Part shown: positions 4,878-47,345 of the stretch, in pieces
Position numbering within the stretch: the first letter of the stretch is position 1
How the letters are laid out: the number at the start of each line of letters is the position of its first letter
Assembly (NCBI RefSeq): GCF_014595995.2
Contig: NZ_CP063989.1
Span: 1,922,001-1,986,000, forward strand
Direction: 5' to 3'
Length of the DNA stretch: 64,000 nucleotides
DNA from: Actinomyces respiraculi
GTDB lineage: Bacteria > Actinomycetota > Actinomycetes > Actinomycetales > Actinomycetaceae
Program-made: the position numbers and the translations under genes
The notes under the pieces: model-generated
What the model was told of the DNA's origin: nothing
The model's input: the letters and a program-made list of their open reading frames with translations, nothing else
Databases searched by the model: none

Positions 4878-4912
4878 CCCGGCATCAATAGGCGGGGTCG
4901 GCAGGGCCCGGC

Positions 4913-5953: not shown

Positions 5954-6780
5954 GAGGCGTCCTGCGCGTCGTCGTCGCGCTCCTGCGCCACCCCGGGCGT
6001 CTGATCCCCAGGCTCGGGGTCGGGGCGGCGCGTACCCAGCAGGTCACGGCCGTTGGGGGTCCGGCCGGGATCGCCGTCGTAGCGCATGTCGTAGGGCCGC
6101 GGGGCCTTCTGTCCACGCAGTACCTCAACCAGTCCGGTGATGCGGGACATGATCTCGGCGGTGGCGGCAACGACCTTCTCACGGTCCTGGGTGTCGGTAC
6201 CGAAGCGCTCGGCCAGGGTGAAGGGCTCACCGATGAGGACGCGAACCTCCTTGCGCGGCAGGGGGTGGAAGCCGCCGCCGAAGGAGTCGAAGATCGTCTG
6301 GGCGCCCCACTGGCCCATGGGCAGGACCGGCACGCCGGTGGACATGGCGAGGCGGGCGGCACCGGTCTTGCCGGTCATGGGCCACCGCAGGGGGTCCCGG
6401 GACAGGGTGCCCTCGGGGAAGATCATGACGACGTCTCCCCCACGCAGGCGCCGCTCGGCCTCGACGAGGGAGTTGCCGGCCTTGTCGGTGCCCCGGTAGA
6501 CGGGGATCTGGCCGCCGGCCTTGAAGACGTGGCCGAGGACGGGGACCTCGAAGAGCGTGGACTTGGCCAGGGAGTAGGCCGGGACGTCGGCGTCGACGAG
6601 GGCGCGCATCGCCGTGAGCGAGTCGAGCTCGGACAGGTGGTTGGCGACGGCGATGAAGCCTCCGTCGCGCGGGATGTTCTCCAGACCCTCGACCTTCTGG
6701 CGGGAGATGGCCTTGAGGAAGGGGATGATGACACCGCGCGAAGCGAAGCGGTAGAAGGGAGACATGGGGCGTGTGCTCAC
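5950..6780 (-). CDS. plsC: 1-acyl-sn-glycerol-3-phosphate acyltransferase (PlsC family)
   Basis: Acylates lysophosphatidic acid at sn-2 to give phosphatidic acid at the membrane. The LPLAT signature is clear: ANHLSELDS (an HX4D-type motif) near residue 46, the GGQIPVYRG block near 87, and IFPEGTLSRD near 120. The 276-aa length is slightly longer than typical because of an Arg/Asp-rich hydrophilic tail (about residues 225-276). GTG at 6780 is used here; ATG at 6765 (MSPFYRFASR) is an equally plausible start and aligns better with mycobacterial relatives. It lies downstream of murA (72-nt gap) and overlaps gpsA. Confidence 0.88.
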   Translation of the reverse strand: MSTRPMSPFYRFASRGVIIPFLKAISRQKVEGLENIPRDGGFIAVANHLSELDSLTAMRALVDADVPAYSLAKSTLFEVPVLGHVFKAGGQIPVYRGTDKAGNSLVEAERRLRGGDVVMIFPEGTLSRDPLRWPMTGKTGAARLAMSTGVPVLPMGQWGAQTIFDSFGGGFHPLPRKEVRVLIGEPFTLAERFGTDTQDREKVVAATAEIMSRITGLVEVLRGQKAPRPYDMRYDGDPGRTPNGRDLLGTRRPDPEPGDQTPGVAQERDDDAQDAS

Positions 6781-8175: not shown

Positions 8176-8320
8176 CTCTACCTCCATAGGTGGGCACTGG
8201 CGTGCCGTGGACGCTCAACCGCAGTTGCGGCCCGGGTACTTTAACCCACCTGTACGGCGATCTGTTCCTCCCTCCTGCTCATGGAGCCCGCTTCGTGGCG
8301 TGTCCGGGTGGTCGTGCGCA

Positions 8321-33108: not shown

Positions 33109-33696
33109 TCAGCCGGAGGTGGTCTGCCCAGTGGTCTCAGCCGACCCGGCCGCCTGGCCCGACTCAGCCGCCTGGGCGGCCTGGGCGGCGATGGCGTCAA
33201 TGGCCTCGTTGAAGGCGTCGGAGGTCTTGGAGGCCCCGGCCAGGGCGGTGACATGGGCCTGCTCAACGCTGCGGCCCACGACCTCGCCGGCGATCTCGTT
33301 GACGAAGTCCTGCATGTAGTCCTTCGACCGCTCGGCGAAGGGGTGGCCGACAACCTCAACCTCGCTGACCACGCCGTCGGCGAGGGTGACGGTGACGTCA
33401 ATGGAGTCCTGCTCGACGAGGTTGTCGAGGACGCCGTAGGTCTGGGTCGAGGTGTACTCACCGTCGGCGTAGGGCCCCCCGGTGGGGGCTGCGGCGGGCT
33501 CGGGCGCCCGGCTCGGGGTCCTGGTGGGGTCGGCGGCCTCACGGGTCTGGGCGCGCCCGGCGTACTCGTCACCGGTGATGGTGACCTCCTCACCGGCGGC
33601 GCACCCGGCCAGGAGGGTTCCGGCGGCGAGCAGGGCGCCGGCGGCGGCACCCGCAGGGCGCAGAACCGTGACGGTCGTGGCGGCACGCGCGCTCAT
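33109..33696 (-). CDS. FMN-binding-domain lipoprotein, probable covalently flavinylated electron carrier
   Basis: A 195-aa exported lipoprotein: signal with lipobox LAGC near residue 32, a Pro/Thr/Ala linker, then an FMN-binding domain (GPYADGEYTSTQTYGVLDN to the C-terminus). The motif AGASKTSDAF (about 155-165) fits the S/T-G-A-S/T-x-T/S consensus that ApbE enzymes modify with FMN. An apbE gene lies 8 kb away at the other end of the same locus. The start overlaps the ATPase stop by 4 nt (ATGA). Its role is likely extracytoplasmic electron transfer in iron uptake; the motif is seen, the modification is inferred. Confidence 0.8.
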   Translation of the reverse strand: MSARAATTVTVLRPAGAAAGALLAAGTLLAGCAAGEEVTITGDEYAGRAQTREAADPTRTPSRAPEPAAAPTGGPYADGEYTSTQTYGVLDNLVEQDSIDVTVTLADGVVSEVEVVGHPFAERSKDYMQDFVNEIAGEVVGRSVEQAHVTALAGASKTSDAFNEAIDAIAAQAAQAAESGQAAGSAETTGQTTSG

Positions 33697-34451
33697 GCGG
33701 TCTCCTCCTTACCGGCACCGGCGAAGTCGAGCATGTCGCGTGTGCGTCGCCGCTCGGCGCCGTCGTTCATCTTCTCCCCCACCAGGCGCCCGTGGTTGAG
33801 CAGGACCTGGCGCTCACCGCAGGAGGCGACGTGGGCGTCGTGGGTGACGACGATGAGGGTCGTGCCTTGGGCGTGCAGGCGCTGGAAGATGTCGAGGACC
33901 AGCTGCTCGTTGGCCTCGTCGAGGTTGCCGGTGGGCTCGTCAGCCAGGACGATCTCGGGGTGGTTGATGAGGGCGCGGGCGATGCACACGCGCTGCTGCT
34001 CACCACCGGAGAGCTGGGAGGGCAGGTGGTGGGCGCGCTCAGCCAGGCCGACCTTGTCCAGGGCCTCCATGGCCTCCTTCTCATCGGTCATGGAGTGGTA
34101 GTACTGGGCGACCATGACGTTCTCGACGGCGGTCAGGTGCGGCACGAGGTGGAACTGCTGGAAGACGAGCCCGATGACGTTCTTGCGGATGTCGGTCAGC
34201 TGGGCGGCATTGAGGCGGCCGAGCTCGCGCCCGTCGAGGAGCACCGAGCCCTTCGAGGCGGTGTCCATGCAGCCGATGATGTTCATGAGCGTCGTCTTAC
34301 CCGAGCCGGAGGAACCGACGAGGGAGAGCCACTGGCCGCGCGGCACGTCGAGGCTGACGTCGTCAACGGCGTGCAGGTCCCCGTAGATCTTGGACACGTG
34401 CCGCAGCTGGAGCAGGGGCCGGTCCTGAGGCTCGGTGGTGGTGTCAGTCAT
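33693..34451 (-). CDS. ABC transporter ATPase (MacB/LolD type) of the iron locus
   Basis: A 252-aa ATPase partner for the two FtsX-type permeases. Walker A VGSSGSGKTTLMNIIG near residue 45, Q-loop VFQQFHLVPHL, signature LSGGEQQRVCIARALINHPE and Walker B IVLADEPTGNLDEA are complete. MacB/LolD ATPases power mechanotransmission rather than classical import. ATG 34451 follows the permease stop by 1 nt. Same transcript as the P19 and FTR1 genes. Confidence 0.92.
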   Translation of the reverse strand: MTDTTTEPQDRPLLQLRHVSKIYGDLHAVDDVSLDVPRGQWLSLVGSSGSGKTTLMNIIGCMDTASKGSVLLDGRELGRLNAAQLTDIRKNVIGLVFQQFHLVPHLTAVENVMVAQYYHSMTDEKEAMEALDKVGLAERAHHLPSQLSGGEQQRVCIARALINHPEIVLADEPTGNLDEANEQLVLDIFQRLHAQGTTLIVVTHDAHVASCGERQVLLNHGRLVGEKMNDGAERRRTRDMLDFAGAGKEETA

Positions 34452-34452
34452 C

Positions 34453-35700
34453 TCATTCCTCCCTGAGGACGACGGCGGGGTCGATGCGGGTGGCGCGGCG
34501 CACCGGTGAGCTCGCCGCGATGACGGCGACGGCGGCGGACAGGGCCAGCGAGCACAGGGCCAGCCACCAGGAGAAGGCGATGGGGCGCTCGAAGACGCCG
34601 GCGCCCACCGCCCAGGCCATGGCGTACCCGACGGCGGTGCCCAGCAGGCCGCCGATGAGCCCCATGACAGCGGCCTCGGTGTAGAACTCGGCACCGATGG
34701 AGAAGGCGGAGGCCCCCAGGGCCTTGCGCAGACCGATCTCCTTCTTGCGCTCGGAGACGATGACGGTCATCGTCGTGGACACGCCGACGAGGGTCAGGGC
34801 CAGGACGACGACGGCCACCACCCAGAACAGGGTGTTGAGCATGGCGATGATGCGCATGTTGCCGCTGGTGATCTTGGAGATCTCCTGGGCGCGCAGACCG
34901 GTGCCGTCCTGGGCGGTCAGGCCGGCGTCGTTGAGGTCCTGCACGGCCCGGGCGGCGGAAACGGTGGTGGTGTCCACGGACAGCTCGACGACGTCGTAGC
35001 CGGCGCCGACGGTGCCGGTGAGGTCCTCCAGGGCCGCCAGCGGCGCGTAGATGATGTCGTCCTCGCGCCCGCCGGTGTCGACGGTGCCCGCCACGCGCCA
35101 ACGGCGCTCACCCTGGGCCTGGGAGGCGCCGTCGGAAGAGACGACAGAGCCAAGCGTGAGGTTGTCGGTGGACAGGTACTCGACGTTGACCATGTCCCCG
35201 ATGCCCAGGCCCGTGGCGCTGGCGACGTCGGTGCCAATGAGGACCTCCCCGTCGCCGGGCCAGGCGCCGTCGACCTCCCAGTGGCCGTTGAGCGCACGGG
35301 TGGCCTCGACGTCGATCCCGCCCATGAGGTAGGCGCTCTTGTTGACCCGGACGGTCTCATAACGGTAGGCGGCGCTGCGCACGTCCCCCGAGGAGGCCTG
35401 CGCCACGGAGCCAAGGACGTCCTGGGCGGCCTGGAGCGAGGTCTCATCCAGGCGCGCGCCCTGGGTCGCCTCGGCCGTGGGGCTCGTGTCCGCGACGGGC
35501 ACGAGGATGACGTTGGCGCCGTACTGGCGCATCTCCTCGCTCATCTGCGCAGGCACGGCCAGGCAGACGGCGGCGAGGCAGAACAGGGTGGCGGCGCCGA
35601 CGGCGGAGGAGCCGATGGCGGCGGCGGCACGCCCCCGACGGCGCATGAGGGCACCCAGGAGCATGGCGAGGAACATGCGGCCGTTGCTCATCTGGCTCAC
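34453..35700 (-). CDS. FtsX/MacB-type ABC permease (second copy in iron locus)
   Basis: A 415-aa permease with an N-terminal TM (about 25-50), a large extracytoplasmic MacB-like domain (about 55-265) and three C-terminal TMs. The ERKKEIGLRKALGASAFSIG cytoplasmic motif lies between the first and second of these. It overlaps the next upstream permease by 4 nt. Its pairing with P19 and DUF2318 matches the ABC-like module of the Campylobacter P19 iron locus, where the permeases' transported species is unknown. Confidence 0.88.
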   Translation of the reverse strand: MSQMSNGRMFLAMLLGALMRRRGRAAAAIGSSAVGAATLFCLAAVCLAVPAQMSEEMRQYGANVILVPVADTSPTAEATQGARLDETSLQAAQDVLGSVAQASSGDVRSAAYRYETVRVNKSAYLMGGIDVEATRALNGHWEVDGAWPGDGEVLIGTDVASATGLGIGDMVNVEYLSTDNLTLGSVVSSDGASQAQGERRWRVAGTVDTGGREDDIIYAPLAALEDLTGTVGAGYDVVELSVDTTTVSAARAVQDLNDAGLTAQDGTGLRAQEISKITSGNMRIIAMLNTLFWVVAVVVLALTLVGVSTTMTVIVSERKKEIGLRKALGASAFSIGAEFYTEAAVMGLIGGLLGTAVGYAMAWAVGAGVFERPIAFSWWLALCSLALSAAVAVIAASSPVRRATRIDPAVVLREE

Positions 35701-36989
35701 CTCCGGTGCAGGGCCGTCGCCGGCTGGATCCTGAGGATCGAGCGCATCGACGAGGAGGTCGCGACGAGCAGGACGAGGGCGACGAGCAGAACGACAAGGA
35801 CGTAAACCATGGGGCGCATCGTGATGGAGGAGTCGAAGACGATCCTGCCGATGAGCTGGGCGAGGCCGGAGCCGACCAGGGCGCCCACGGCCGTGCCGAT
35901 GACGCCGATAACGGCGGTCTCGGACAGGATGAGCCGGTTGATCGAGGCGCTGGAGGCGCCAACGGCCTTGAGCAGCGCGAACTCACTCGTGCGCTCCACG
36001 AGGGAGGCGGTGGTGAGGGAGGCGACGGCGAGGGCGGCGGCAAGCAGTGACAGGGCGGTCATGAGGATCATGAGGACCTGCGTCTTCTCCAGGACGCTGC
36101 CCTCGACGGCGGCAACCTGGCGGACCTGCTTGGCGACGACGCCGGGGATGGACTCCTCGATCTGGTAGGTGATGGAGGAGGCGTAGGCGGTGCAGTACCA
36201 GGTCTCCCACTCGTAGTTGGAGACGATGGCGGGGTTCTGCGAGACCTTGCGCGACAGGTCGTTCTCGGGGGTGGTCAGGGCCTTGACCTCGACCTGCTCG
36301 ACCTGGCCGACGTGGCCGGTGAGCTCCTGGACGACGGCCAGCGGCGCGTACAGGGTGGCGTCGTCGTCATCACCGGAGGTGTACACGCCGGTGACGGTCA
36401 GCCGACGCTCGCCCAGCGGCGTGGTCAGGGTGATGACGTCGCCGGTGCGCACACCAACCTGCTGGGCCAGGGCGGAGCCGACGACGGCCTCGTCGGCCTC
36501 GTCGTCGGGCCACCGACCCTCAAGGGACCACCAGGAGCGCAAGGTGGTGACGCCGGCGACGACCGTTTCCCCCGTGGGCAGCTCGAGCTTCTTGTTGAAC
36601 CAGGTGCCGACGACGACCAGATCCTCGGAGGAGGTGCCGGTCGAGGCGGCGACGTCGGCCTGGCCGGTGAGGCGGGCGGCGAAGTCGACGATGTTGTAGG
36701 CCCAGAAGATCGTCTTGATGGTGGGCACCGAGGCCTCGTCGATGAAGGCGGTGGCCTGGGGCTCGTCCTCGGTCTCGTACAGGTCGGCGACGACGGCGTC
36801 CGCCTTGGGCTGGACGACGATGTTGGAGCCGTAGGCGGTGAGCTCGGCGTTGAGCTTGTCGCCGACGTCGAAGACGACACCGAGCATGGCGACGCTGATC
36901 GCAGCGCTCAACGCCACGGTCAGGCCGATGAGGGAGCGGCGGCGCAGCTGGCGGGTGAAGGAGCGGTGCAGCAGGCGCGCAAGGAACAT
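35697..36989 (-). CDS. FtsX/MacB-type ABC permease (first copy in iron locus)
   Basis: A 430-aa paralogue of the next gene with the same one-plus-three TM layout: LTVALSAAISVAMLGVVFDV near the N-terminus, LVERTSEFALLKAVGASSAS before TM3, and the C-terminal VLLVALVLLVATSSSMRS. The extracytoplasmic domain contains a single cysteine region (WETWYCTAY). The start overlaps the DUF2318 stop by one base (TGATG). Two different permeases suggest a heterodimer with one ATPase. Confidence 0.88.
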   Translation of the reverse strand: MFLARLLHRSFTRQLRRRSLIGLTVALSAAISVAMLGVVFDVGDKLNAELTAYGSNIVVQPKADAVVADLYETEDEPQATAFIDEASVPTIKTIFWAYNIVDFAARLTGQADVAASTGTSSEDLVVVGTWFNKKLELPTGETVVAGVTTLRSWWSLEGRWPDDEADEAVVGSALAQQVGVRTGDVITLTTPLGERRLTVTGVYTSGDDDDATLYAPLAVVQELTGHVGQVEQVEVKALTTPENDLSRKVSQNPAIVSNYEWETWYCTAYASSITYQIEESIPGVVAKQVRQVAAVEGSVLEKTQVLMILMTALSLLAAALAVASLTTASLVERTSEFALLKAVGASSASINRLILSETAVIGVIGTAVGALVGSGLAQLIGRIVFDSSITMRPMVYVLVVLLVALVLLVATSSSMRSILRIQPATALHRR

Positions 36990-38260
36990 CAGGCGAACAC
37001 CTCGGCACTGGCCTCCAGGACCTCGGTGGGGATGAGCATGGTGCCGTCCTCGACCGTGTACTCAATGGGGATCGGGTTGCAGCCGCCCTTGAAGCCGACG
37101 GTGGCGGGATTGATGGCGACGTCGCAGCGTTTGCAGATGACCTTGCCGTCGGACTCGTAGTAGCCGGAGGGGCCGCAGGACTCGCAGGCGTCGAGCCCGA
37201 CGCCGTAGGCCCCACCGTTCTTGAGTAGGGCGATCCACCGCACCTGGGTGCCGTTGGTGGCCTCGTAGGAGAAGCGGTGCAGGTGGCCGTCGGCCAGCAG
37301 GCTGGTGGGGATGAGGGCGCCGGAGGCGGCGAGCTCGTAGGGCTCCGGCTCGGACAGGGTGGGGACCTCGTTGAGCTTGGCGACGGCGACGGTGCGGGTG
37401 AGCACGAGGAGGGTGAAGGCGCCCGCGGAGGCCAGGACCCAGCGCCGTGAGCGGCGCCGCTCGGCCCTGACGGCGCGCAGGCGGGCGGGGTTGGCCTGCG
37501 CGGGGGCGCGGCCCAGGGCGCGGGCGAGCTCAACAGCCAGGGGCACGAGCCAGATGGCGGCGGCGGTCAGCAGGATGGCGCCCTCGAAGTTGTTGGCGGC
37601 CCAGGACAGGAGCCTGAAGCCGGTGCCGGTGATGCGGATGCGCTGGGTGCCGTTGAGCACGCGCAACAGCTGCAGCAGGTGCACGGCGGTGACGACGGTG
37701 AGGAAGACGGCCAGGCTGGCCCGGGTCAGGACCACGGGGGCGCGGCGCGCGGCGCGGTAGTACAGGAAGGACAGGATGGCGACACAGGCCCAGGCACCGA
37801 CGAAGCCGAGCACGCGCAGCAGCATGGTGGAGGAGACAACCTCCTCGCCCGGCTCGATGAAGGCGGCGAGCTGGAGGACGACCTCCGGGACGGCGCGGAA
37901 GAAGGCGGCGGCCAGGGCGGTGCAGGCGGCCACCTGGGCGACGGCGCCAAGGCGACCCTCGGCCCCCCAGCGGGGACGGCGCGCCAGAAGCAGGACACTG
38001 GTGAGCAGGGCGGCGTCGGCCAGGACGCACACGATGAGGGTGGGCACGGTGACGCCGGTGCGGTCGTGGATGATGGCCAGCGCACGCAGGGCGGCGAAGA
38101 TGATGCCTCCGGCGGTGCCGACCAGGGCGCCGGCCAGGCGCCAGCGCGAGCTGCGAGGCCAACCCTCAATGAGGGCGGGGGCGAGGATGACGGCGGCGGC
38201 CGCGTAGAGCAGGAAGGGCAGAGTCGCTCCCCCGACGACGGAGACGAATCGCTCGAGCAC
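36989..38260 (-). CDS. DUF2318 membrane protein with CxxC motifs
   Basis: A 423-aa protein with about eight TM segments in the first 290 residues. A C-terminal extracytoplasmic DUF2318 domain follows: YEATNGTQVRWIALLKNGG, then CESCGP, ICKRCDVAINPATVGFKGGCNPIPI. Five cysteines in CxxC/CxxC/C arrangement suggest a metal or iron-sulfur site or redox thiols. DUF2318 proteins cluster with P19 and FTR1 in other bacteria. GTG start behind AAGGAAG. Membrane redox partner between a cytosolic donor and the FMN lipoprotein is a plausible but unproved role. Confidence 0.88.
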   Translation of the reverse strand: MLERFVSVVGGATLPFLLYAAAAVILAPALIEGWPRSSRWRLAGALVGTAGGIIFAALRALAIIHDRTGVTVPTLIVCVLADAALLTSVLLLARRPRWGAEGRLGAVAQVAACTALAAAFFRAVPEVVLQLAAFIEPGEEVVSSTMLLRVLGFVGAWACVAILSFLYYRAARRAPVVLTRASLAVFLTVVTAVHLLQLLRVLNGTQRIRITGTGFRLLSWAANNFEGAILLTAAAIWLVPLAVELARALGRAPAQANPARLRAVRAERRRSRRWVLASAGAFTLLVLTRTVAVAKLNEVPTLSEPEPYELAASGALIPTSLLADGHLHRFSYEATNGTQVRWIALLKNGGAYGVGLDACESCGPSGYYESDGKVICKRCDVAINPATVGFKGGCNPIPIEYTVEDGTMLIPTEVLEASAEVFA

Positions 38261-38323
38261 GTCTGGTCACACTTCCTTGTTGTCGGTTCTGCGGGCGGGC
38301 CCCCCGGGTGGGGGCGAGCCGCC

Positions 38324-38367
38324 GGCGCCGTGACGCTCCAGGCCGGGTCGGCCGGGGTCACGGCGCC
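38324..38367. promoter_or_regulatory. Strong compound hairpin between P19 and DUF2318 genes
   Basis: ggcgccgtgac (38324-38334) and gtcacggcgcc (38357-38367) form a perfect 11-bp stem. The loop contains a second stem, ggccg (38341-38345) with cggcc (38349-38353). It lies inside the operon in a 185-nt gap, with no U-run. It could be an attenuating terminator or an RNA-stabilising structure after the P19 cistron. Confidence 0.65.
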
Positions 38368-38445
38368 AGTGAATCAGACGGCCGCCGTAGGGGTGGGCAC
38401 ATACCCCTCTCGCACGGGCGGCCGCTGAGGTGGTCTGAGGTGGTC

Positions 38446-39108
38446 TCACCACTCCTGGACGGTGTACTCCCAGTTCTCCCAGGTCAGTTCGGTGGCCTCC
38501 CAGAAGCGGCCGGTGACACCGGTCTCAGGGTCGACGTGCAGGACCCAGCCGGCCTCCTCCGGGGAGGAGACGCCGATGATGATGTTGTAGGTGCCGTCCT
38601 CGGGCAGGGCGATGTTGGCGCCGTAGTGGGGGCCGTCGGACGCATTCATCTGCATGAAGGTGCCCTCCGCGGCGCCGTTGTTGGCGACCTGGCCGGAGGC
38701 GGCGTCAACGATCTTGTAGGTGACGGTCAGACCGGGGATGAAGGAGCCCTCGGGGTAGCCGAGCGTGTTGCTGGCCAGGGCGGAGATGTCAGCCTCGATG
38801 TGGAAGTTGGACTGGGAGGCGGCCAGGCCGGAGGAGCCGGCGGGCTCCATGTCGACCGGCTGGAAGTAGACGAGGGCGACGTTGATCTGCGGGGTGCCAC
38901 CGGAGGAGATCTCCTGGTCCTCGCCGATGGGGTACTCGGTGAAGGCGGCCTCGCCGTCGTCCATTGCCTCGCCGTCGGCCATCTGGCCCTCGGCCATGGT
39001 GGAGTCGGAGGCGGGGGCGTTGTCCTGGGAGGAGCCGCAGGCGGCCAGGCCCAGGGTGCCGACCAGGGTGAGGGCTGCGAGAGAGGAGACGAGCGTGAGG
39101 GAACGCAT
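38446..39108 (-). CDS. P19/Tp34-family iron-transport lipoprotein
   Basis: A periplasmic-type metal-binding protein that assists FTR1 iron uptake. The 220-aa protein has a lipobox LAAC near residue 24 and an acidic Met-rich linker (STMAEGQMADGEAMDDGE). The immunoglobulin-like P19 domain follows, with metal ligands in NFHIEADI and MQMNASDGPHYGAN (His and Met typical of the family). C. jejuni P19 binds copper and iron at this site. It is 53 nt downstream of the FTR1 gene. Confidence 0.92.
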   Translation of the reverse strand: MRSLTLVSSLAALTLVGTLGLAACGSSQDNAPASDSTMAEGQMADGEAMDDGEAAFTEYPIGEDQEISSGGTPQINVALVYFQPVDMEPAGSSGLAASQSNFHIEADISALASNTLGYPEGSFIPGLTVTYKIVDAASGQVANNGAAEGTFMQMNASDGPHYGANIALPEDGTYNIIIGVSSPEEAGWVLHVDPETGVTGRFWEATELTWENWEYTVQEW

Positions 39109-39161
39109 GGGATGATCCTTTACGTGGTGTGGTGGATGGTTGGTACGGTTGGTGGTTGGGC

Positions 39162-40901
39162 TCAGGCGTCCTTGGCGGCACGGTCAGCACGGTCGGCACG
39201 GCGGTGACGCATGACCGAGACGAGGGACAGGACCAGGACGACGGCGACCATGACGACCTGGAAGCCGATGGTCTCGACGTAGGGATAGAAGCCGAGGACG
39301 TCGTAGGTGGGCACGCCTTCGAGGTAGGTGGCGGGGATGATGTCGCCCTCGAGGAGCGAGTGGGCACCGCCGCCTGCGAAGACGATGACGAGCAGTGCCA
39401 TGAGGAAGGACGTGACGGCGAAGAAGGGCCGCAGGGGGATCTTGACGCTCGTGTAGCGGATGAGCAGGAAGATGACGAGCAGGACGGCCACGGCGGTGGC
39501 GAACCCCTGCCAGATGCTGGCGCCGGCGGTGGGGTCGATGCCGAACAGCGCCTGGTAGAACAGGACGGTCTCGGCCCCTTCGCGGAAGACGGCGAGGAAG
39601 GACAGGGACACCAGGCCCCAGAACCCGCCCGCGGAGACGGAGGCCTCGGTCTTGTCCTTGATGTAACGGTTCCACGAGGCCACCGAGGACTTCGAGAGCA
39701 TCCAGTTCGAGGTGAACAGGAGCATGAGCATCGCGATGATCGCGACCACGCCCTCCAGGGCCTCCTGGTAGGCGGAGGCGGAGCTGAACAGGGCGGAGAA
39801 CAGGGCGGCGACGACGCCGGAGGCGATGAGGGCCAGGGCCACGCCGAGGTAGACGTACCTCACCCGGTTCCTCATCCCCGCCTGGACGAGGTAGGCGATG
39901 ACGGCGGCCACGACGAGGAGGGCCTCGAGCCCCTCGCGGATGAGGATGAGGAAGGCCTGGCCGAAGGTGCCGGTGAGGAAGGCCGTGAGGGGGCTGATGT
40001 CCTCGGCGGCGCCGCCGTCGAGCATCCGGGCGTCCTCAAGGAGGTAGCCCTTGAGGGTCTCGGCGTGCTGGGTGGCCGCCTCGGCGTCGCCGGCGATCAT
40101 GGCCTTGCGGGTGTTCTTGAAGGTGGACTCCACGAGTGAGACCCGGTCCCCGGAGATCGTCATGACCTTCTTCTCGAAGCCGAGCTTCTCGTAGTAGCCG
40201 TAGTAGGCCTCGTTGACGAGCTCGGCCCCGGCACTGCCGTTGCCCGCAAGGGTCTCGGCCAGGCCCTGGTCGATGAGCTCGTTCATCTCGGTGGCGATCT
40301 CAACCCAGGTGTGCTCGCCTCGCCCGGACGTGTCCGCGGTGGAGCTGGCGTCGATGGCGGCGCGCTCCTCGGCGATCCGCGTGGCCAGGGCCTGGGCGTA
40401 GTCCCGAGGGCCGGCCAGACCTTCGGTGGCGTCGAGTGCGGTGGCGGCCTCGGTGAGTGAAGCGACGAGGTCGGCCACGCCGGTGGCCAGTGCTTCGTCG
40501 TTGCCTGCGGAGTGGGCGGAAGAACTCAGGGAGGTGAAGGCCTCTGTGTACGGCTTGGAGGCGTCGGCGCCGAGGGTGTCGGTGACGACGTTGCGCATGT
40601 TGGAGGCGATATAGCCCGAGTTCTGCGCCTTGAGAACGGCAGCGGCGGCACCCGGGTAGTCGCCGGCTGCGTACTCCTCGATCGCGGTGTCGAGCTCGTC
40701 GGAGATGCGCTCGACGACCTGGGTCCAGGTGTCGACGTCGGTGTCGGCCTCGGCAGCGGCAGCCGTGGGGCGCGGGCCAAGCGGGCTGAGCACACTCAGG
40801 AGCAGCATGAGGGCGGCGAGGAGGACGACGGCGGCCCTGCTCACCTGTCCACTGGGCGTGCGGGAGCGCGAGCCGACGAGGGCCTGGGGCTGGGAGGGCA
40901 T
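39162..40901 (-). CDS. FTR1-family iron permease (EfeU-like)
   Basis: Imports ferric iron or takes up oxidised ferrous iron. The 579-aa protein has an N-terminal signal segment (about 22-45) and a large extracytoplasmic helical region (about 50-300) seen in the long FTR1 class. The seven-TM permease follows, with both REGxE iron-binding motifs: LIREGLEALLVV near residue 325 and FREGAETVLFY near 455. First gene of the iron operon. ATG 40901; GAGGAA lies about 10 nt upstream. A DtxR/IdeR-like box precedes it. Confidence 0.92.
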   Translation of the reverse strand: MPSQPQALVGSRSRTPSGQVSRAAVVLLAALMLLLSVLSPLGPRPTAAAAEADTDVDTWTQVVERISDELDTAIEEYAAGDYPGAAAAVLKAQNSGYIASNMRNVVTDTLGADASKPYTEAFTSLSSSAHSAGNDEALATGVADLVASLTEAATALDATEGLAGPRDYAQALATRIAEERAAIDASSTADTSGRGEHTWVEIATEMNELIDQGLAETLAGNGSAGAELVNEAYYGYYEKLGFEKKVMTISGDRVSLVESTFKNTRKAMIAGDAEAATQHAETLKGYLLEDARMLDGGAAEDISPLTAFLTGTFGQAFLILIREGLEALLVVAAVIAYLVQAGMRNRVRYVYLGVALALIASGVVAALFSALFSSASAYQEALEGVVAIIAMLMLLFTSNWMLSKSSVASWNRYIKDKTEASVSAGGFWGLVSLSFLAVFREGAETVLFYQALFGIDPTAGASIWQGFATAVAVLLVIFLLIRYTSVKIPLRPFFAVTSFLMALLVIVFAGGGAHSLLEGDIIPATYLEGVPTYDVLGFYPYVETIGFQVVMVAVVLVLSLVSVMRHRRADRADRAAKDA

Positions 40902-40951
40902 GTGGCTGGTGTTCCTCACGCGCGTCTGTCTGGGGATGGCGGGACAGGTGG

Positions 40952-40970
40952 ATAGGTAAGCCTGGCCTGC
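40952..40970 (-). promoter_or_regulatory. DtxR/IdeR-like iron box upstream of the iron operon
   Basis: ataggtaagcctggcctgc matches the 19-bp consensus TTAGGTTAGCCTAACCTAA at 13 positions, with the strong half (AGGT-AAGCCT) intact. It lies 51 nt before the FTR1 start, in the 137-nt divergent gap with apbE, so it could repress both when iron is sufficient. Confidence 0.55.
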
Positions 40971-41038
40971 GTGAATCACCTTAGGGTCACCATTTCGCCG
41001 TCGTCAAAATACGGCTCACACAAGGCGGACACGCTGTC

Positions 41039-42088
41039 ATGAAGTCTCGTTCCGACGGCGATCGTCGGCGCGCACCGGGGCATGCTGGTCATATGCGCCC
41101 CTCCCCCGACCCACTGCCCCGGCCGGACGCGCGCCCCTGGACACAGGTGTGGCGAACGCCCGCCACCGGCACCACCTGGCGGGTGCTCACCCACGAGCCA
41201 CTGCCCCCTGCGCTACGCGAAGAGCTTGTCGCGCTCATCGACGCCTACGAGGAGGTCTTCTCCCGCTTCAGGCCCGGCTCCCTCGTGAGTCGGGCCGCGG
41301 CGGGCCGGAGCGACACCGGGCCGATCACCCTCGACCTGCCGGCGGGCTCCGCCCGGATGCTCGACCTCTACGACCGGCTTCACGCGGCCACCGCCGGACG
41401 CCTGGACCCGCTCGTGGGCTCCGACCTCGTGGCCCTGGGCTACGACGAGTCCTGCACCTTCGTCGTGCAGGACGGCGCACTCGCACGCCTGGGCGCTGCG
41501 GGGGGACGTCCCGTGTGGGGCCGCGATGCCCACCACGACGGCGACCGGCTCACGCTTGAGCGACCGGCACTCATGGACGTGGGCGCTGTCGGTAAGGGAG
41601 CCCTCGTCGACCTCGTGGGACAGGCGCTTGAGGCGGCCGGGGTGGAGCAGTACGTGGTCGATGGCTCGGGGGACCTGCTCGTGCGCTCCGAGCAGCCCGT
41701 GCGCCTGGGTCTGGAGGAGCCGAGAGCGGCCGGGGACCACCCCACCGCCACCCCGCGCGTCAGCGGCGTCATTGGTGTCGTCGAGCTCAGGCGCGGAGCG
41801 CTATGCGCCTCGGGCAGCTACCGGCGGACCTGGGGACCGGGCCTGCACCACCTGCTCGACGCCGTCACCGGGCTGCCGGTCGGCGGCGAGCGCGTGCCGG
41901 TGGCGACCTGGGCTATCGCCGAGGACGCCGCCACCGCGGACGGCCTGGCCACCGCCCTGTTCCTCACGGAGCCCGCCGTGCTGGCCGCCGCGGGCTTCCG
42001 TTACGACTTCGCCCTGCTGCGCGGCGACGGCACGGCCGCCGTCTCGCGGGGCTTGACGGCGCTGCCCGGCGAGCTCTTCACAGCCTGA
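41039..42088 (+). CDS. apbE: FAD:protein FMN transferase (ApbE)
   Basis: Transfers FMN from FAD to a Ser/Thr in exported flavoproteins; the FMN-binding lipoprotein at 33.1 kb is its probable substrate. The 349-aa protein lacks the usual lipoprotein signal. Conserved blocks include LMDVGAVGKGALVDLVGQAL, YVVDGSGDLLVRSEQPVRLG and PVATWAIAEDAATADGLATALFL, which carry the Mg- and FAD-binding acidic residues. ATG 41039 is used; ATG at 41093 (MRPSPDPLPRP) is an alternative. If ApbE acts outside the membrane it would need another export route, or the lipoprotein is modified before export; that is open. Confidence 0.9.
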   Translation: MKSRSDGDRRRAPGHAGHMRPSPDPLPRPDARPWTQVWRTPATGTTWRVLTHEPLPPALREELVALIDAYEEVFSRFRPGSLVSRAAAGRSDTGPITLDLPAGSARMLDLYDRLHAATAGRLDPLVGSDLVALGYDESCTFVVQDGALARLGAAGGRPVWGRDAHHDGDRLTLERPALMDVGAVGKGALVDLVGQALEAAGVEQYVVDGSGDLLVRSEQPVRLGLEEPRAAGDHPTATPRVSGVIGVVELRRGALCASGSYRRTWGPGLHHLLDAVTGLPVGGERVPVATWAIAEDAATADGLATALFLTEPAVLAAAGFRYDFALLRGDGTAAVSRGLTALPGELFTA

Positions 42089-42108: not shown

Positions 42109-43683
42109 TCAGGTCCCGGCCCGCAGCGCCGCGCTGCGTCCGCCCAGGACACAGGCCCCCAGCCCAGCGGCCGCAAGCAGGGCGCTCAGACCCGTCACCA
42201 GCACCCACCTGCCGGGAGCAGTGGAGACGACCTGCCCCCAGCCCCACGGGGCGGCGGGCCACAGAGCCTCTGACAGCACCTCGGTGCCTGCGATGACGAG
42301 GCTCGTGAGCAGCCCGAAGACGGCGACGGCGACGGAGGTGGCCAGGCCGGCGAGCTGATTGACGGCGTAGGCGGCCGCGGTGCTCATGAGTAGGACCCAG
42401 GGGGCTACGAGCAGCATGTGTGCAGGTGCCAGGCCTGAGACCGCCGCGGCACTCCCTCCGGCGGCCACCCAGGAGACCGTGGCGACCGCACTGAGGAAGA
42501 CGGTCGTGAGCCCCAGGGTCACGGCATCGAGCACACCAACCCGCTCACGCAGCAGCAGACCGCGGCGGGCGCCGGACTGTGCGCTCCAAGCGGTCATGCC
42601 GGCGACCGTCGCCGAGACGGGCAGGCACACAAGACCCAGCACGCTCAGGGCGGTGCCGGATCCGTACAGGGCATTGACAAGGCTGATGAACGCGACCATG
42701 AGCACGGCCAGCAGGCTCCACACGCCCCAGGGCAGGACGAGCAGGAGCGCCCGCAGTGGCCGCCGGCGCCCACTGAGGCGGGGTGAAGCCGGCAGGGCGG
42801 CAAACACAGGCCTGGATGTGCTCACGCCATGGCCCTGACGCCGCGGCTGGATCTGGCCCGCCTTCGCCAGGCGCCTGATGCGTCCACGGCCGCCCAGTGA
42901 CCGCTCGGGCACCGCCACGAGCAGCGCCAGGGCAGCGGCGAACAGGCCGGTCAGGAGCACGGCCGACGGCCACCACGGCCAGTGCCACACGGGCGAGCCC
43001 GGTTCGAGGGGGACGGAGTTGCCGTGCACGCCCAGCAGCGGCAGGCTGCCGCGCATGAGCCAGGTCCACGGCCGCAACTGCCAGCCCGCGCTTTCGGCAC
43101 CCACGGCGCCGGCGACGCAGCACACGAAAGCCACCGCGGGGGCCAGGCCGACTCCGACGCCTCCCAGGAGCCTGCAGGCGAGCGCACCCAGCAGGGCGGC
43201 ACCGCCCGTGCCCACCCACATGAGCAGACCGAAGGGCAGGTAGCGTCCGGCTGGACCCAGGCCCTGCCCCAGGAGCAGACCGTGGGCGACGACGGGCAGA
43301 AGCAGCACCACCTGGGCCGCGAGCGCGGCGAGGACGAGCACTGCGGCGCGGGCGAGGGTGGAGCGCGCGGCGGGCACGGGCCGCCAGGCGGTGCCGCCGT
43401 AGCGCCAGCGCTGCTCACGCCACTCGGCCATGGCCCCGGTGAGCGCCCCGATGGGTAGGGCGACAGCAGCCGGGTAGAAGGACAGCCAGGCGAGGATGTT
43501 GCCGTCCCACTGGCCGCCGTCGTCATACAGGCCGTTGAGGCGAGCAGCCTGAGCGAGGACGAGGCAGTAGACGGCCATGGCCAGGCTCACGGCAAGTGAG
43601 CCCCAGGTGAAGGTCCGGTGGGAGCGCAGCAGCTCGGCGCGCAGGAGCCGGGCGCGGCGGGTTGTGGCGGCTGCGGTGCTCAT
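42109..43683 (-). CDS. ABC-2-type permease, long fused form (lantibiotic-immunity MutE/MutG-like)
   Basis: A 524-aa protein with about 12 TM segments in two halves of roughly 240 residues separated by a basic Arg/Gly-rich linker (RGRIRRLAKAGQIQPRRQGHG at about 275-295). Immunity-type permeases such as EpiE/EpiG are about 250 aa each. This looks like the two fused into one polypeptide. It overlaps its ATPase by 4 nt (ATGA). The substrate is unknown; a bacitracin- or lantibiotic-like self-protection or resistance role is inferred from ATPase type and the neighbouring two-component systems. Confidence 0.75.
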   Translation of the reverse strand: MSTAAATTRRARLLRAELLRSHRTFTWGSLAVSLAMAVYCLVLAQAARLNGLYDDGGQWDGNILAWLSFYPAAVALPIGALTGAMAEWREQRWRYGGTAWRPVPAARSTLARAAVLVLAALAAQVVLLLPVVAHGLLLGQGLGPAGRYLPFGLLMWVGTGGAALLGALACRLLGGVGVGLAPAVAFVCCVAGAVGAESAGWQLRPWTWLMRGSLPLLGVHGNSVPLEPGSPVWHWPWWPSAVLLTGLFAAALALLVAVPERSLGGRGRIRRLAKAGQIQPRRQGHGVSTSRPVFAALPASPRLSGRRRPLRALLLVLPWGVWSLLAVLMVAFISLVNALYGSGTALSVLGLVCLPVSATVAGMTAWSAQSGARRGLLLRERVGVLDAVTLGLTTVFLSAVATVSWVAAGGSAAAVSGLAPAHMLLVAPWVLLMSTAAAYAVNQLAGLATSVAVAVFGLLTSLVIAGTEVLSEALWPAAPWGWGQVVSTAPGRWVLVTGLSALLAAAGLGACVLGGRSAALRAGT

Positions 43684-44435
43684 CGCTGCACCCCTGCCCC
43701 GGTGACCAGTGCCAGGTAGGCGTTCTCGAGGCCGACGCCGTCGTCGGGGTCGGCCAGGCCCTGCAGGGGGCCCTCGTAGGCCAGTCGTCCGCGGTTCAGG
43801 ACACCGACGTCGTCGGCCATGCGAGCCATCTCGCCCAGCTGGTGGCTGGAGACGACGACGGTGCGCCCGGAGTGCGCCAGGGATCGCAGGAGGTCGCGCA
43901 GTTCGATGACGCCTTGCGGGTCGAGCCCGTTCTGGGGCTCGTCCAGGATGAGGACCTCTGGGTCGGTCAGCAGCGCCATGGCCAGGGCGAGGCGCACCTT
44001 CATGCCGGTGGAGAAGGAGCCTGCGCGCGTGCGGCCGGCATCGCCGAGCCCGACCCGCCTCAGCAGTGGGTCGATAACGTCCAGGTCGGTACCGGTCAGG
44101 TGGGCGTGGACGGCGAGGTTGCGGTGGGCGCTGAGCCTGGGGAAGAAGGAGGGGCCGTTGATGGAGGCGCCGATATGCGCCAGGCAGCTGCGGTCGAAGG
44201 GCCGGCCGAGGATCGCTACGCTGCCAACCTCGGGCCGCATGAGCCCCAGCGCGATGGACAGGGTGGTGGACTTTCCGGCGCCGTTGGGTCCCAAGAGGGC
44301 GTAGACGCGTCCGGGCCAGGCGGTGAGGTCGAGACTGTCAAGGACCCGCTTGCGGCGAAAGGACTTCGTCAGGCCTTCCAGGTGCAGGCCGGGGACCTCA
44401 GGTGCGGGGGCGGTGGTGGGTGTCGTGGTGCTCAT
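43680..44435 (-). CDS. ABC transporter ATPase (BcrA/LanF type)
   Basis: A 251-aa ATPase with Walker A LLGPNGAGKSTTLSIALGL near residue 45, signature FSTGMKVRLALAMALLTDPE and Walker B VLILDEPQNGLDPQG. The E-to-Q-rich 'EPQNGLD' pattern is characteristic of lantibiotic/bacitracin immunity ATPases. ATG at 44435; an earlier in-frame ATG at 44486 lacks support. It lies 105 nt after the LuxR-type response regulator on the same strand. Confidence 0.9.
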   Translation of the reverse strand: MSTTTPTTAPAPEVPGLHLEGLTKSFRRKRVLDSLDLTAWPGRVYALLGPNGAGKSTTLSIALGLMRPEVGSVAILGRPFDRSCLAHIGASINGPSFFPRLSAHRNLAVHAHLTGTDLDVIDPLLRRVGLGDAGRTRAGSFSTGMKVRLALAMALLTDPEVLILDEPQNGLDPQGVIELRDLLRSLAHSGRTVVVSSHQLGEMARMADDVGVLNRGRLAYEGPLQGLADPDDGVGLENAYLALVTGAGVQR

Positions 44436-44540
44436 AGCATGAGGGTCCGCGCCCCGTGGGGGTCGGCGGATCCTCCCGAGGGTCACCGTCCGGACGATTC
44501 CACGCCCGCCCTCTCCCCCCTGGGGAGGAGGGGCCCGTGC

Positions 44541-45335
44541 TCAGTGAGGCAGCGCGTTGTCGGGTGCCGGTGCGACCATGCCGTGGCGGTAGGCGTGGAC
44601 GATGAGCTCAACCCGGTTGGTGCAGCCGGTCTTGCCCAGCAGGGACCGCACGTGGGTCTTGACGGTGGACTCGGCCAGGTGCAGGCGCTCGCCGACGGCG
44701 GTGTTGGACAGTCCTTCACACACGAGGGCCAGGACCTCCTCCTCGCGCAGGGTCAAGGGCTCGGCCAGGGCCCGGGTGCCCGCGGCGGCCACGGTATCCG
44801 CAGCGGCATCGGCGGGCGCAGGGCCCAGGTCTCGCCCCGAGGCGGTGACGGCCCCTGTGGCGGCCGAGTCCTGCGCTCCGCCCTGACCCAGCTGGGCCAG
44901 CACCGTGCCGGTGACCGCCGGGTCCAGCCAGGAACCACCGGCGGCGACGGCGCGCACCGCCTCAAGCAGCACCTGCGGCGAGGTGTCCTTGAGCAGGTAA
45001 CCGTCGGCACCGGCCCGCAGTGCCTCCAGGACGAGCTCCTCGTCGTCGAAGGTGGTGAGCACTAGCACCCGGGTGGTGGCCAGCTCCGGGTCGGCGCGCA
45101 GGACCCGGATGGCGCTCGCCCCGTCCAGGACGGGCATGCGCAGGTCCATGAGGACACAATCGGCGGCGCCGTCCGGGGCCACTGACCGCAGCACCGTGAG
45201 CGCAGCCGCGCCGTCGTCGGCACTGCCCACCACCTCGATGTCCGGTTGGGCCGCCAGCAGCATCTCGAAGGAGATACGCACAAGCTCCTGGTCGTCGACG
45301 ACGACCACGCGAACCGGCAGGCGGGTGTCAGTCAT
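44541..45335 (-). CDS. NarL/LuxR-family response regulator (with Ala-rich linker)
   Basis: A 264-aa regulator. Receiver domain: VVVVDDQELVRISFEMLL, phospho-acceptor Asp in CVLMDLRMPVLDG (about residue 60), TTFDDEELVLEAL and the LLKDTSPQVLLEAV switch lysine. An unusually long Ala/Thr-rich linker (about 150-195) leads to the LuxR helix-turn-helix (LTLREEEVLALVCEGLSNTA...STVKTHVRSLLGKTG). The start overlaps its kinase by 8 nt. The kinase-regulator pair probably controls the adjacent ABC exporter. Confidence 0.92.
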   Translation of the reverse strand: MTDTRLPVRVVVVDDQELVRISFEMLLAAQPDIEVVGSADDGAAALTVLRSVAPDGAADCVLMDLRMPVLDGASAIRVLRADPELATTRVLVLTTFDDEELVLEALRAGADGYLLKDTSPQVLLEAVRAVAAGGSWLDPAVTGTVLAQLGQGGAQDSAATGAVTASGRDLGPAPADAAADTVAAAGTRALAEPLTLREEEVLALVCEGLSNTAVGERLHLAESTVKTHVRSLLGKTGCTNRVELIVHAYRHGMVAPAPDNALPH

Positions 45336-46626
45336 GGTGCTCCTTCCTGCGGATGGTGACGGGGACGGTGACGTCGAGGACGAAGCGCGCGCCCTCGGGT
45401 CCGGGCACGACGTCGGCACTCAGTACACCGCCCACAAGCCTGACCCGCTCGGCCAGACCGTTGAGGCCACTGCCGGGCTCCGCGGGCCCGGCTGGTGCCG
45501 GCAGGCCATTGACGATGGTGAGCCGGCAGGCGCCGTCGGCCTCCCACACGCGGAAGGCGGCCTGTCCATTGCCGTGGCGCAGGGCGTTGGTCAGCGCCTC
45601 CTGGGCGCAGCGCAGCACCGCCAGGCGCTGGTGGACGCCCCAGCCCTGCCCCAGCGCGGACAGGGCGGCAGCCGCGGGCAAGTCCGCCTCGACCTCCAGT
45701 CCGGCGGCCCGCACGGCGGCCAGCGCCTCGTGAACGGCACCGAGGTCCGCCGGGGCGAGCGCACCCTCACCCGGAGCCCTGAGCACGCGCACGAGCTCAC
45801 GCACCTCCTCAAGGGAGGCGGCCGCCGTCCGCTCGACGTCGACCAGCGCGGCGCGGTGGGTGCCCGGGTCATCGAGGGCCAGGGCCGTGCCCGCACGGAC
45901 CTTGACGGCGGTCAGCGAGTGGCCGATGACGTCGTGGAGCTCGCGGGCCAGGCGCAGCCGCTCCTCGTCCACGGCCCGTCGGCGCACGGCTTGACGCTCG
46001 TAAGCCCTGGCCTGGGCCGCCTGGCGGCGCCTGAGGGCGTCAACGGTAACGAGCACGACGGCGAGCAGGCACACCGTGGCGCTCAGAGTGCAGGAGACGA
46101 GCAGGTCCACGGTGGCGGAGGCGAGCGTCTGCTCGGTGAGGCGGTGACGACCCAGCAGCATCATGTTGACCGGGTTGACGAGGCAGCCGAGTAGCGCTGC
46201 AGCCACCGCCCCACGGCCCCAGCGCGGGTCGGGGTCCCAGCGCAGGCAGGCGTGCAGCGTCGTCAGGGCGGTCAGGGCCAGCGGCGAGATTCCCAGCGAC
46301 ACCGGTGAGAGGAAGGTGAGCACCGCATAGGCGGCCAGGCCCGCCGCGGTGACGAGGGCACTGGCCCGCAGGCGGGCACGGCGCCAGGGCTGGGCGGCGG
46401 CGATGACCCATCCGATGAGGAGGTCGGCGACGTAGACGGCATGGAGGCCGAAGCGGCTGAGGAAGCTGAGGGAGACGGAGGCCACGAGCAGGCAGGCGGC
46501 TGCCAGGAGCACATCCGCCACAGGCAGTGAGTGCCGAGCGTCCCGGGCTCCGAGGAGCCGGGCCCCAGCGCGCCAGTCGGTGACCGAGGGCGCGAGGGGT
46601 GCCGACGGCGTGGCCCTGCCCGTCAT
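45328..46626 (-). CDS. Sensor histidine kinase (HisKA_3/NarL-type partner)
   Basis: A 432-aa membrane kinase with about six TM segments in the first 190 residues and no large extracytoplasmic domain, resembling DesK-type intramembrane sensors. The H-box RLARELHDVIGHSLTAVKV holds the phospho-His near residue 230. N-box CAQEALTNALRHGNG and G-box SGLNGLAERVRLVGG follow. The ATG overlaps the preceding response regulator stop by 4 nt. Confidence 0.92.
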   Translation of the reverse strand: MTGRATPSAPLAPSVTDWRAGARLLGARDARHSLPVADVLLAAACLLVASVSLSFLSRFGLHAVYVADLLIGWVIAAAQPWRRARLRASALVTAAGLAAYAVLTFLSPVSLGISPLALTALTTLHACLRWDPDPRWGRGAVAAALLGCLVNPVNMMLLGRHRLTEQTLASATVDLLVSCTLSATVCLLAVVLVTVDALRRRQAAQARAYERQAVRRRAVDEERLRLARELHDVIGHSLTAVKVRAGTALALDDPGTHRAALVDVERTAAASLEEVRELVRVLRAPGEGALAPADLGAVHEALAAVRAAGLEVEADLPAAAALSALGQGWGVHQRLAVLRCAQEALTNALRHGNGQAAFRVWEADGACRLTIVNGLPAPAGPAEPGSGLNGLAERVRLVGGVLSADVVPGPEGARFVLDVTVPVTIRRKEHHD

Positions 46627-47345
46627 GCGGTGGCGCGCAGCCAGGTGAGGACCGCCCTCACACGGCGGGTGTCCTCACCGGGCGGCAGGTCGAGCTTGGC
46701 CAGGATATTGGCCACGTGCTTGGCGACGGCGCCGTCGGACAGGACCAGGCGCTCGGCCACCTGGGTGTTGGACAGGCCCTCCGCCATGAGTGCCAGGACC
46801 TCGCGCTCGCGCTCGGTCAGCCGCCGGACCCGCTCGGCGTCCCCGCCCGACGCCGGGGCGCCTGCACCCACCGGGGTGGCGGGCCGGGCTGCGCCCATGA
46901 GGGTGGCCAGGACCTCGGGGTCGATGACGACGCCCCCGGCGGCGACGACGTCGAGACTGCGCAGGAAGTCGTCCACGCGCCCGACCCGCTCCTTGAGCAG
47001 ATAGCCCACGGCCCCGCCACCACCGTCCGAGGTGGTGGCCGAGCCGAGCAGGTCACGCAGGTAGGGGCCGGCGACGTAGGCGGACAGGACGACGACGGGC
47101 AGCCCCGGGTGGGCGGCACGCAGGTCGACGGCGGCGCGCAGGCCGTCGTCGGTGCCGGTGGGCGGCATGCGCACGTCGGTGACGACGACGTCGGGCGGCG
47201 CTCCCACCTGGGCCAGGCGGGTGACCTCGGCGCGCAGGGCGTCGGCGTCGGCGACCTGGGCGACGACCTCGTGCCCGGCAGCGGCCAGCAGGCCGGCGAT
47301 GCCCTCGCGCAGGAGGGCGGCGTCGTCGGCGAGCAGGATCCTCAT
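46623..47345 (-). CDS. NarL/LuxR-family response regulator
   Basis: A 240-aa regulator. Receiver with LLADDAALLREGIAGLL, Asp in VVVTDVRMPPTGTDDGL (about residue 53) and GYLLKERVGRVDDFL. The LuxR HTH follows (LTEREREVLALMAEGLSNTQ...DGAVAKHVANILAKL). I use ATG 47345 because it gives the canonical receiver start; an upstream ATG at 47372 adds nine residues. Partner of the kinase 19 nt upstream. Confidence 0.92.
   Translation of the reverse strand: MRILLADDAALLREGIAGLLAAAGHEVVAQVADADALRAEVTRLAQVGAPPDVVVTDVRMPPTGTDDGLRAAVDLRAAHPGLPVVVLSAYVAGPYLRDLLGSATTSDGGGGAVGYLLKERVGRVDDFLRSLDVVAAGGVVIDPEVLATLMGAARPATPVGAGAPASGGDAERVRRLTEREREVLALMAEGLSNTQVAERLVLSDGAVAKHVANILAKLDLPPGEDTRRVRAVLTWLRATA

Follow-up and report, generated by a model that had tools for sequence, protein, structure and literature searches.

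In the window analysed here, a stretch of 64,000 nucleotides from Actinomyces respiraculi (contig NZ_CP063989.1, positions 1,922,001 to 1,986,000), seven leftward genes and a divergent apbE gene form an iron-uptake locus at positions 33109..42088. From sequence comparisons, we consider it likely that the locus encodes a Fet/Sif-type importer with an exported flavin mononucleotide (FMN) lipoprotein as carrier and a dedicated adjacent ApbE. P19 would bind iron outside the membrane and FTR1 would take it in, with the DUF2318 protein and an FtsX-type ATP-binding cassette (ABC) transporter aiding a redox step. The exported FMN lipoprotein would carry electrons outside the cytoplasm, a position taken by thioredoxins in most Proteobacteria, and the adjacent apbE would supply the enzyme that loads FMN onto it, probably in the cell before export. 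The apbE gene would be switched on together with the importer under iron limitation, through a shared DtxR-type promoter. The initial annotation, made from the window alone, had already described an iron-uptake unit that includes a flavin lipoprotein and a likely flavinyltransferase, and the linkage reported below supports this description.

Linkage was analyzed in 49 genomes of the genus, 101 of the family, and 396 of the order. Within the genus, P19 was found in 22 of 49 genomes, all of which carried both the FMN lipoprotein and a divergent apbE. The same gene order recurred in all 22 (split over two contigs in G130, and with FTR1 and one permease broken into several frames in G125, which is 82% complete), and the arrangement is thus more than chance. 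Among the 27 P19-negative genomes of the genus, three had the FMN lipoprotein at >100 bits (G003, G106, and G133; alignment-A1 matches under 30 bits were dropped from this search) and three had ApbE (G003, G133, and G111). Within the family, P19 was found in 26 genomes, ApbE in 37, and both in 23. FMN_bind was detected at E ≤ 0.001 in 33 of the 37 ApbE-positive genomes vs none of the 64 ApbE-negative genomes, and at E ≤ 0.1 in 35 and 2 genomes, respectively; at this looser threshold G072 and G077 were discounted, although the match kept for G092, which lies in a P19 locus, had a similar E-value. In the order, from which six P19 matches under 31 bits were dropped, ApbE was present in 42 of 45 genomes with P19 at >100 bits vs 164 of 351 others. 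By family, these were 12/12 in f1, 20/21 in f3, and 10/12 in f20, where f1 is taken to be Actinomycetaceae and f3 to be Bifidobacteriaceae, the latter on the identification of its member G284 as Bifidobacterium breve or a very close relative (see below). The distributions of the FMN lipoprotein and P19, on whose connection the initial annotation had depended, were thus linked and not independent. In the bifidobacterial genome G475, the six core genes were kept with no FMN gene after the ATPase, and neither FMN_bind (E ≤ 0.1) nor ApbE (E ≤ 0.001) was found in the genome, a single case of joint absence. The P19-positive family genomes without ApbE were G034, G049, and G007, the last with a weak P19 match. 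The loci of G034 (L053) and G049 (L054) contain FTR1 and a diverged P19, but neither DUF2318 nor FtsX was matched in the vicinity, and FMN_bind and ApbE were not found in these genomes; judging from gene content, we read them as a possible smaller version of the P19 system. In three Bifidobacteriaceae (G161, G434, and G483), a second FMN_bind match above the cut-off was found on a contig other than that of the P19 locus.

Several observations weigh against a dedicated pair of flavin genes. The genome counts ignore relatedness. In G106, neither ApbE nor P19 was found, and the FMN gene is the only locus gene in the stretch examined; G003 has adjacent FMN and apbE genes, but P19 is missing from its genome; G111 has ApbE without the FMN lipoprotein; G052 and G076 have ApbE without FMN_bind; and G334 has ApbE without FMN_bind or P19. 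Neither FMN_bind nor ApbE was found in the P19-positive f20 genomes G286 and G323, whose assemblies are fragmented into 290 and 440 contigs.

The flavin module might be a separate redox pair that merely adjoins the importer, a reading we regard as improbable. It fits G003, where no other importer gene occurred in the 18 kb examined, and the loci of Microbacterium and related genera, in which a type-A FMN protein (defined below) and ApbE are flanked by no P19-locus genes. However, G133, the other P19-negative genome with both flavin genes, carries a partial locus (L090) that looks like a decayed copy: one frame (7866-8795) combines an ATPase match with the C-terminal part of the FMN domain, and FTR1, P19, and DUF2318 were not found in that stretch. 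Going by gene content, G003, G133, and G106 may represent stages of locus decay. The ApbE lineage also tracks the locus lineage, and sifE mutants of B. breve share most of the sif phenotype (PMC5449479, in the part cited here), both of which argue against independence.

The same genome counts bear on another possibility, namely that ApbE works elsewhere (e.g., in iron-sulfur (Fe-S) repair), that the FMN of the lipoprotein is non-covalent or absent, and that the genes are linked through shared iron regulation only. Such a role is favored by G106, where the FMN gene occurs but ApbE does not, and by G052 and G076, where ApbE occurs but FMN_bind does not. Against it stand the presence of FMN_bind in ApbE-positive family genomes only (at E ≤ 0.001) and the lack of both flavin genes in G475 while the six core genes stayed; with the evidence presented below on both sides, we judge this role unlikely, though less so than an independent pair.

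The P19 loci fell into two lineages with different flavin modules. In Actinomyces and Bifidobacteriaceae, the FMN protein was of type A and apbE was located either 5' of FTR1 or at another place in the genome, while in the other genera of the window's family and in f20, the FMN protein was of type B and apbE lay just 3' of the FMN gene. Each of the six core genes on its own, as well as their concatenation, united Actinomyces with Bifidobacteriaceae (FastTree support 0.92–1.0) in trees of the 56 loci with all six genes, from which incomplete loci such as G099, G130, and L157 were excluded. That Actinomyces clusters with another family, though it shares its own with type-B genera, suggests transfer or ancient alternatives. 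In the ApbE tree, type A formed a clade (support 100/99) that included three metagenome rows, and so did type B (98/97). Type A lay with the ApbEs of Microbacterium and relatives, Streptomyces, and others, and type B with six of the seven ApbEs of P19-less FMN loci, the seventh (G043) being on the type-A side. Measured from the window's ApbE, type-A and type-B ApbEs were 20–28% identical. A joint clade of the two P19-linked ApbE groups was rejected by the approximately unbiased (AU) test with a p-AU of 0.0002, which is optimistic because the clade was chosen after the FastTree tree had been seen. This rejection suggests that the flavin pair was recruited or replaced separately in each lineage. 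The ApbE tree used 9 of the 24 Actinomyces rows, rows from 10 of 20 ApbE-positive bifidobacterial and 5 of 10 f20 genomes, and, of the type-B loci in the window's family, from which 20 ApbE frames had been extracted, rows from 13 loci; the type-B row L048 and the type-A rows L176 and L177 were left out. A swap of the module in Actinomyces alone was considered and dropped because Bifidobacteriaceae have the same type, which places the swap between the two lineages.

Of 65 loci found with a Microbacterium type-A FMN protein, 64 contained an ApbE, which in 63 of them immediately followed the FMN gene. The remaining locus was a P19 locus of Pseudoscardovia. In locus L157 of Pseudoscardovia suis, the ATPase and the type-A FMN lipoprotein share one continuous open frame (4540-6324); no apbE was recognized downstream, and the region upstream of P19 lies outside the locus covered. 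The gene after apbE in L093 has an NAD-binding reductase domain, none was recognized in L152, and a Ferric_reduct protein adjoins the FMN–ApbE pair of G043.

Mutant data come from a relative. The BfeUO-SifABCDE system of B. breve UCC2003, including the FMN-binding protein SifE, was described together with transposon mutants by Lanigan et al. (2017, PMC5449479), and the results below are from the parts of that paper cited here. The paper also names B. bohemicum and B. bombi as species without sifE. Of its 16 primers, 15 match locus L165 of G284 exactly, indicating that G284 is B. breve or a very close relative. The match of primer Bbr_0228-RT-16 falls within the sifE frame and that of sifE-RT-15 beyond it (L165, 14796-15710), and the two labels look swapped in the paper. 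G284 has one FMN_bind protein (SifE) and one ApbE (L166), which falls in the type-A clade; because it is the sole ApbE found in G284, the mutated gene Bbr_1825 is probably the L166 gene. Whether apbE loss affects iron uptake had been raised by the initial annotation, and the apbE::Tn5 mutant of B. breve is indeed impaired by both dipyridyl and phenanthroline. Table 3 of that study records full growth on ciclopirox, combined with an optical density below 0.5 on phenanthroline, for 5 of 28 mutated genes, which were sifA, sifB, sifC, sifD, and apbE. Lanigan et al. ascribed the apbE mutant to Fe-S repair, which favors the unlikely other role introduced above. However, the mutant of apbC, the other Fe-S gene, did not have the ciclopirox-normal, phenanthroline-poor profile, whereas the apbE mutant was normal on ciclopirox like those of sifA-E. 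Loading of SifE by ApbE is a simpler reading of the phenotype than Fe-S repair; among open-licence PMC papers, none was found that links the two. Three points weigh against SifE loading: the phenanthroline grade was - for the apbE mutant vs + for the sifE mutant; under dipyridyl the apbE mutant was one grade milder (+ vs - for the sif mutants); and the apbE phenotype rests on the insertion listed in the screen, with no complementation seen in the part of the paper cited.

The ApbE of the window appears to be cytosolic. It is the sole PF02424 match in the genome at E ≤ 0.001, and neither a signal peptide nor a lipobox was seen in it, with no hydrophobic stretch ahead of the ApbE domain (best value -1.06). 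This check was a crude hydropathy test with a cut of 1.9, not SignalP. None of 78 ApbE rows exceeded the cut (8 rows were too short to score), the highest being 1.69 in F20_L170, whereas the cut was passed by 19 of 24 FMN lipoproteins, whose lowest value was 1.66, and by 7 of 10 of type B; the F20_L170 value thus reaches the lowest lipoprotein value. A cytosolic ApbE would need to act before lipoprotein export, and FMN loading inside the cell is probable on this account. An ApbE without a signal peptide, whereas the lipoprotein is exported, would also suit a role of ApbE elsewhere. Cytosolic ApbEs are named for intracellular targets in a 2025 review, as far as the part cited here goes. In the methods cited from Meheust et al. 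(2021, PMC8238504), genes without signal peptides were removed from the survey; surveys that filter ApbEs in this way may miss the cytosolic kind. The RNF/NQR complexes were rejected as the reason for apbE because PF03116 (NqrB/RnfD) was above its cut-off in none of the 101 family genomes.

The lipoprotein itself is a predicted FMN-binding protein. Its PF04205 score of 22.9 was barely above the cut-off of 22, but it was the sole match in the genome at E ≤ 0.001 and its predicted structure shows an FMN-domain fold, so that profile and predicted fold agree. Against PDB sequences only chance-level matches were obtained (best E 0.095, to transferrin-binding proteins). The codon of the lipobox Cys32 lies at 33601..33603 (reverse strand), and C32 was invariant in 24 rows. 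The candidate flavin-acceptor motif, TALAGAS (residues 150–156; 33229..33249, reverse strand), ends in the proposed acceptor Ser156, which was also invariant in 24 rows. The initial annotation had proposed an ApbE-type motif, but the motif is weak and departs from the D-x-x-[ST]-G-A-[ST] substrate consensus given in the cited part of the 2025 review, as Asp is missing and Ala replaces Ser/Thr at -3. All 24 Actinomyces rows read [T/Q/H/E]-A-L-A-G-A-S, so that the lack of Asp (0/24) and of Ser/Thr at -3 (0/24) and the terminal Ser count against flavinylation, and such a degenerate motif would suit a role of ApbE elsewhere. Bifidobacteriaceae rows read DKVAGAS (8/11) or SVVAGAS (3/11), and the consensus was kept in 17 of 25 type-B rows. 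According to the same part of the review, changing Asp to Ala in the motif has a minor effect and a Ser acceptor is labelled less, yet really, which makes modification of the Actinomyces motif plausible. We infer that FMN may be covalently attached at Ser156.

Electrons probably flow towards iron, with reduction somewhat favored over oxidation. The opposite direction, in which the flavin accepts electrons and helps oxidize Fe2+ to drive FTR1-type transport, is the less probable of the two but a serious competitor. In the sources as far as cited, FtrABCD is reported to be Fe2+-only, with a permease that, as for Ftr1p, is predicted to be powered by oxidizing Fe2+, and FetE/FetF may be oxidases in vivo (PMC10783030); the sensitivity of B. 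breve sif and apbE mutants to dipyridyl and phenanthroline, not ciclopirox (PMC5449479), would also fit oxidation. A search for Ferric_reduct/MsrQ-like (PF01794) donors gave a match in one of the 22 P19-positive Actinomyces genomes and in none of 21 from Bifidobacteriaceae, which likewise favors oxidation. By contrast, characterized flavinylated systems are described, in the sources cited, with a cytosolic donor and an extracytosolic acceptor, and the 2023 Campylobacter model, as cited from PMC10783030, has FetE/FetF relay reducing power. For reduction, the missing donor is a difficulty: no electron donor for the flavin was identified in the PF01794 search, and NapH-, PepSY-, and DsbD-like donors were not searched. 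The only PF01794 protein among the 22 Actinomyces (G131:C11:287831-288181) lies about 100 kb from P19.

The DUF2318 protein offers a possible step on the electron path. It has the cysteine pattern CxxC-x13-CxxC-x14-C, in agreement with the Fet/Sif pattern CxxC-x13-CxxC-x14,15-C. Five Cys and D324-H326-H328 were invariant in 25 aligned relatives, all actinobacterial, and the only His residues in invariant or nearly invariant columns were 326 and 328, in the C-terminal domain near the conserved Cys. The five Cys and two His suggest a putative metal or thiol site. A heme route through this protein is unlikely because no conserved His occurs in its predicted membrane helices in the 25 rows. Its comparison with PDB sequences gave nothing of note, and Foldseek with the predicted model gave no match at E ≤ 0.001.

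The region shared by FTR1 and apbE contains a DtxR/IdeR-like box at 40952..40970 that matches 14 of 19 positions of a DtxR consensus; no box with ≤3 mismatches was found in the window. Boxes of at least 14/19 were found in 19 of the 22 regions around the apbE–FTR1 junction, compared with 18 of 648 400-base pieces from 21 loci, promoters included, and the position of the best box varied within the 400-base regions. Such boxes at the junction suggest that iron may control both directions, and the importer and apbE would then respond to iron limitation through a shared DtxR-type promoter.

Together, these results led us to a broader proposal, which we put forward tentatively and with confidence a little short of even. 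The lipoprotein and its private cytosolic ApbE may be an exchangeable cartridge, exchanged as a pair between P19 lineages at least once, with thioredoxins taking its place in most Proteobacteria. The lipoprotein would receive its FMN ahead of export, on a non-canonical A-G-A-S motif that this ApbE subfamily has come to accept, and the ferrous-chelator sensitivity of the B. breve apbE mutant would reflect failure of SifE loading and not Fe-S repair. If so, the 2017 phenotype ascribed to Fe-S repair would gain a direct biochemical cause that is testable in a gut bacterium. Protein flavinylation would become a working part of a widespread iron importer, beyond a guess from gene neighborhoods, and in-cell flavinylation of an exported protein, sparing the export of flavin adenine dinucleotide, would become testable.

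The eight locus genes and two neighbors were scanned with Pfam profiles, and with the open frames these placed all eight genes where the initial annotation had them. On the reverse strand, the FTR1/FetM/BfeU iron permease lies at 39162..40979 (PF03239, 99 bits; two REGxE motifs). A long N-terminal part precedes its FTR1 domain, and its start is more plausibly an ATG near 40901, ahead of the predicted signal peptide. It is followed by the P19/FetP/BfeO metal-binding lipoprotein at 38446..39108 (PF10634, 165 bits; with a lipobox), which matched PDB chain 8t7m_A (E 1.8e-36) and P19 entries such as 3lzl. Next are the FetA/SifA-type membrane protein with an FtrD-like/DUF2318 C-terminal domain (36989..38260; PF10080, 104 bits), the FtsX/MacB-like permease 1 in the FetB/SifB position (35697..36989), and the FtsX permease 2 in the FetC/SifC position (34453..35700); both permeases match FtsX (PF02687), and one also matches MacB_PCD. 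The ABC ATPase in the FetD/SifD position (33693..34451; PF00005, 124 bits), whose start was corrected to near 34451, and the FMN_bind lipoprotein in the SifE position (33109..33696; PF04205) complete the leftward genes. The apbE gene of the FAD:protein FMN transferase family lies at 41039..42088 on the forward strand (PF02424, 116 bits). At three of the six junctions between leftward genes there are overlaps of 1–4 bases, and no gap exceeds the 185 bases that separate P19 from DUF2318. No EfeB, EfeO, or FtrB cupredoxin was found beside FTR1 by Pfam among the eight genes and two neighbors. Beside apbE, positions 42109-46674 contain an ABC permease whose match to MutE/EpiE lantibiotic-immunity permeases falls short of the cut-off, an ATPase-like frame recognized by eye, a LuxR-type response regulator, and a HisKA_3 kinase, and look like a regulated ABC unit of its own.

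The core order FTR1, P19, DUF2318, permease, permease, ATPase is the Fet/Sif order, and the seventh gene, which is either a thioredoxin or an FMN-binding gene in this group, is FMN-binding here. As cited from Liu et al. (2018, PMC6083913), the first six genes occur in the same order in 33 species, and the seventh codes for an FMN-binding protein in Actinobacteria, Firmicutes, Spirochaetes, and Synergistetes; Meheust et al. (2021, PMC8238504) found an FMN-binding gene in 260 P19 clusters, most of them Gram-positive, and suggested redox chemistry for iron uptake. The initial annotation had taken the combination as novel, but these papers and the B. breve study (PMC5449479) had already published it, and the seven-gene arrangement itself is not new. 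Nor is the path through DUF2318 undescribed: for Campylobacter, where loss of each of fetA-D impaired growth, the cited part of Richardson-Sanchez et al. (2023, PMC10783030) proposed a redox relay through FetA/DUF2318. What is new here concerns apbE, namely its linkage, the two lineages, the joint absence, the reinterpretation of the B. breve mutant, and the topology and motif; relative to the P19 clusters of Meheust et al., as far as cited, the ApbE pairing, the lineages, and the mutant data are added. Compared to the window's locus, Campylobacter jejuni FetMP-FetABCDEF has the same six first genes in the same order and the same DUF2318 Cys pattern, but thioredoxins FetE/FetF instead of an FMN lipoprotein. 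The type-B P19 loci share the six core genes and have an FMN_bind protein and ApbE, but the FMN protein is of the other type and the distant ApbE is encoded 3' of the FMN gene. The closest likeness is to B. breve BfeUO-SifABCDE, which has the same seven genes in order, six core proteins that each form a clade with those of Actinomyces, and the same FMN-protein type and ApbE clade. The differences are that the motif Asp occurs in 8/11 Bifidobacteriaceae vs 0/24 Actinomyces rows and that apbE is remote in the B. breve-like G284 (P19 at 0.24 Mb and apbE at 2.15 Mb of 2.27 Mb), whereas all 22 Actinomyces loci have apbE in divergent orientation to FTR1.

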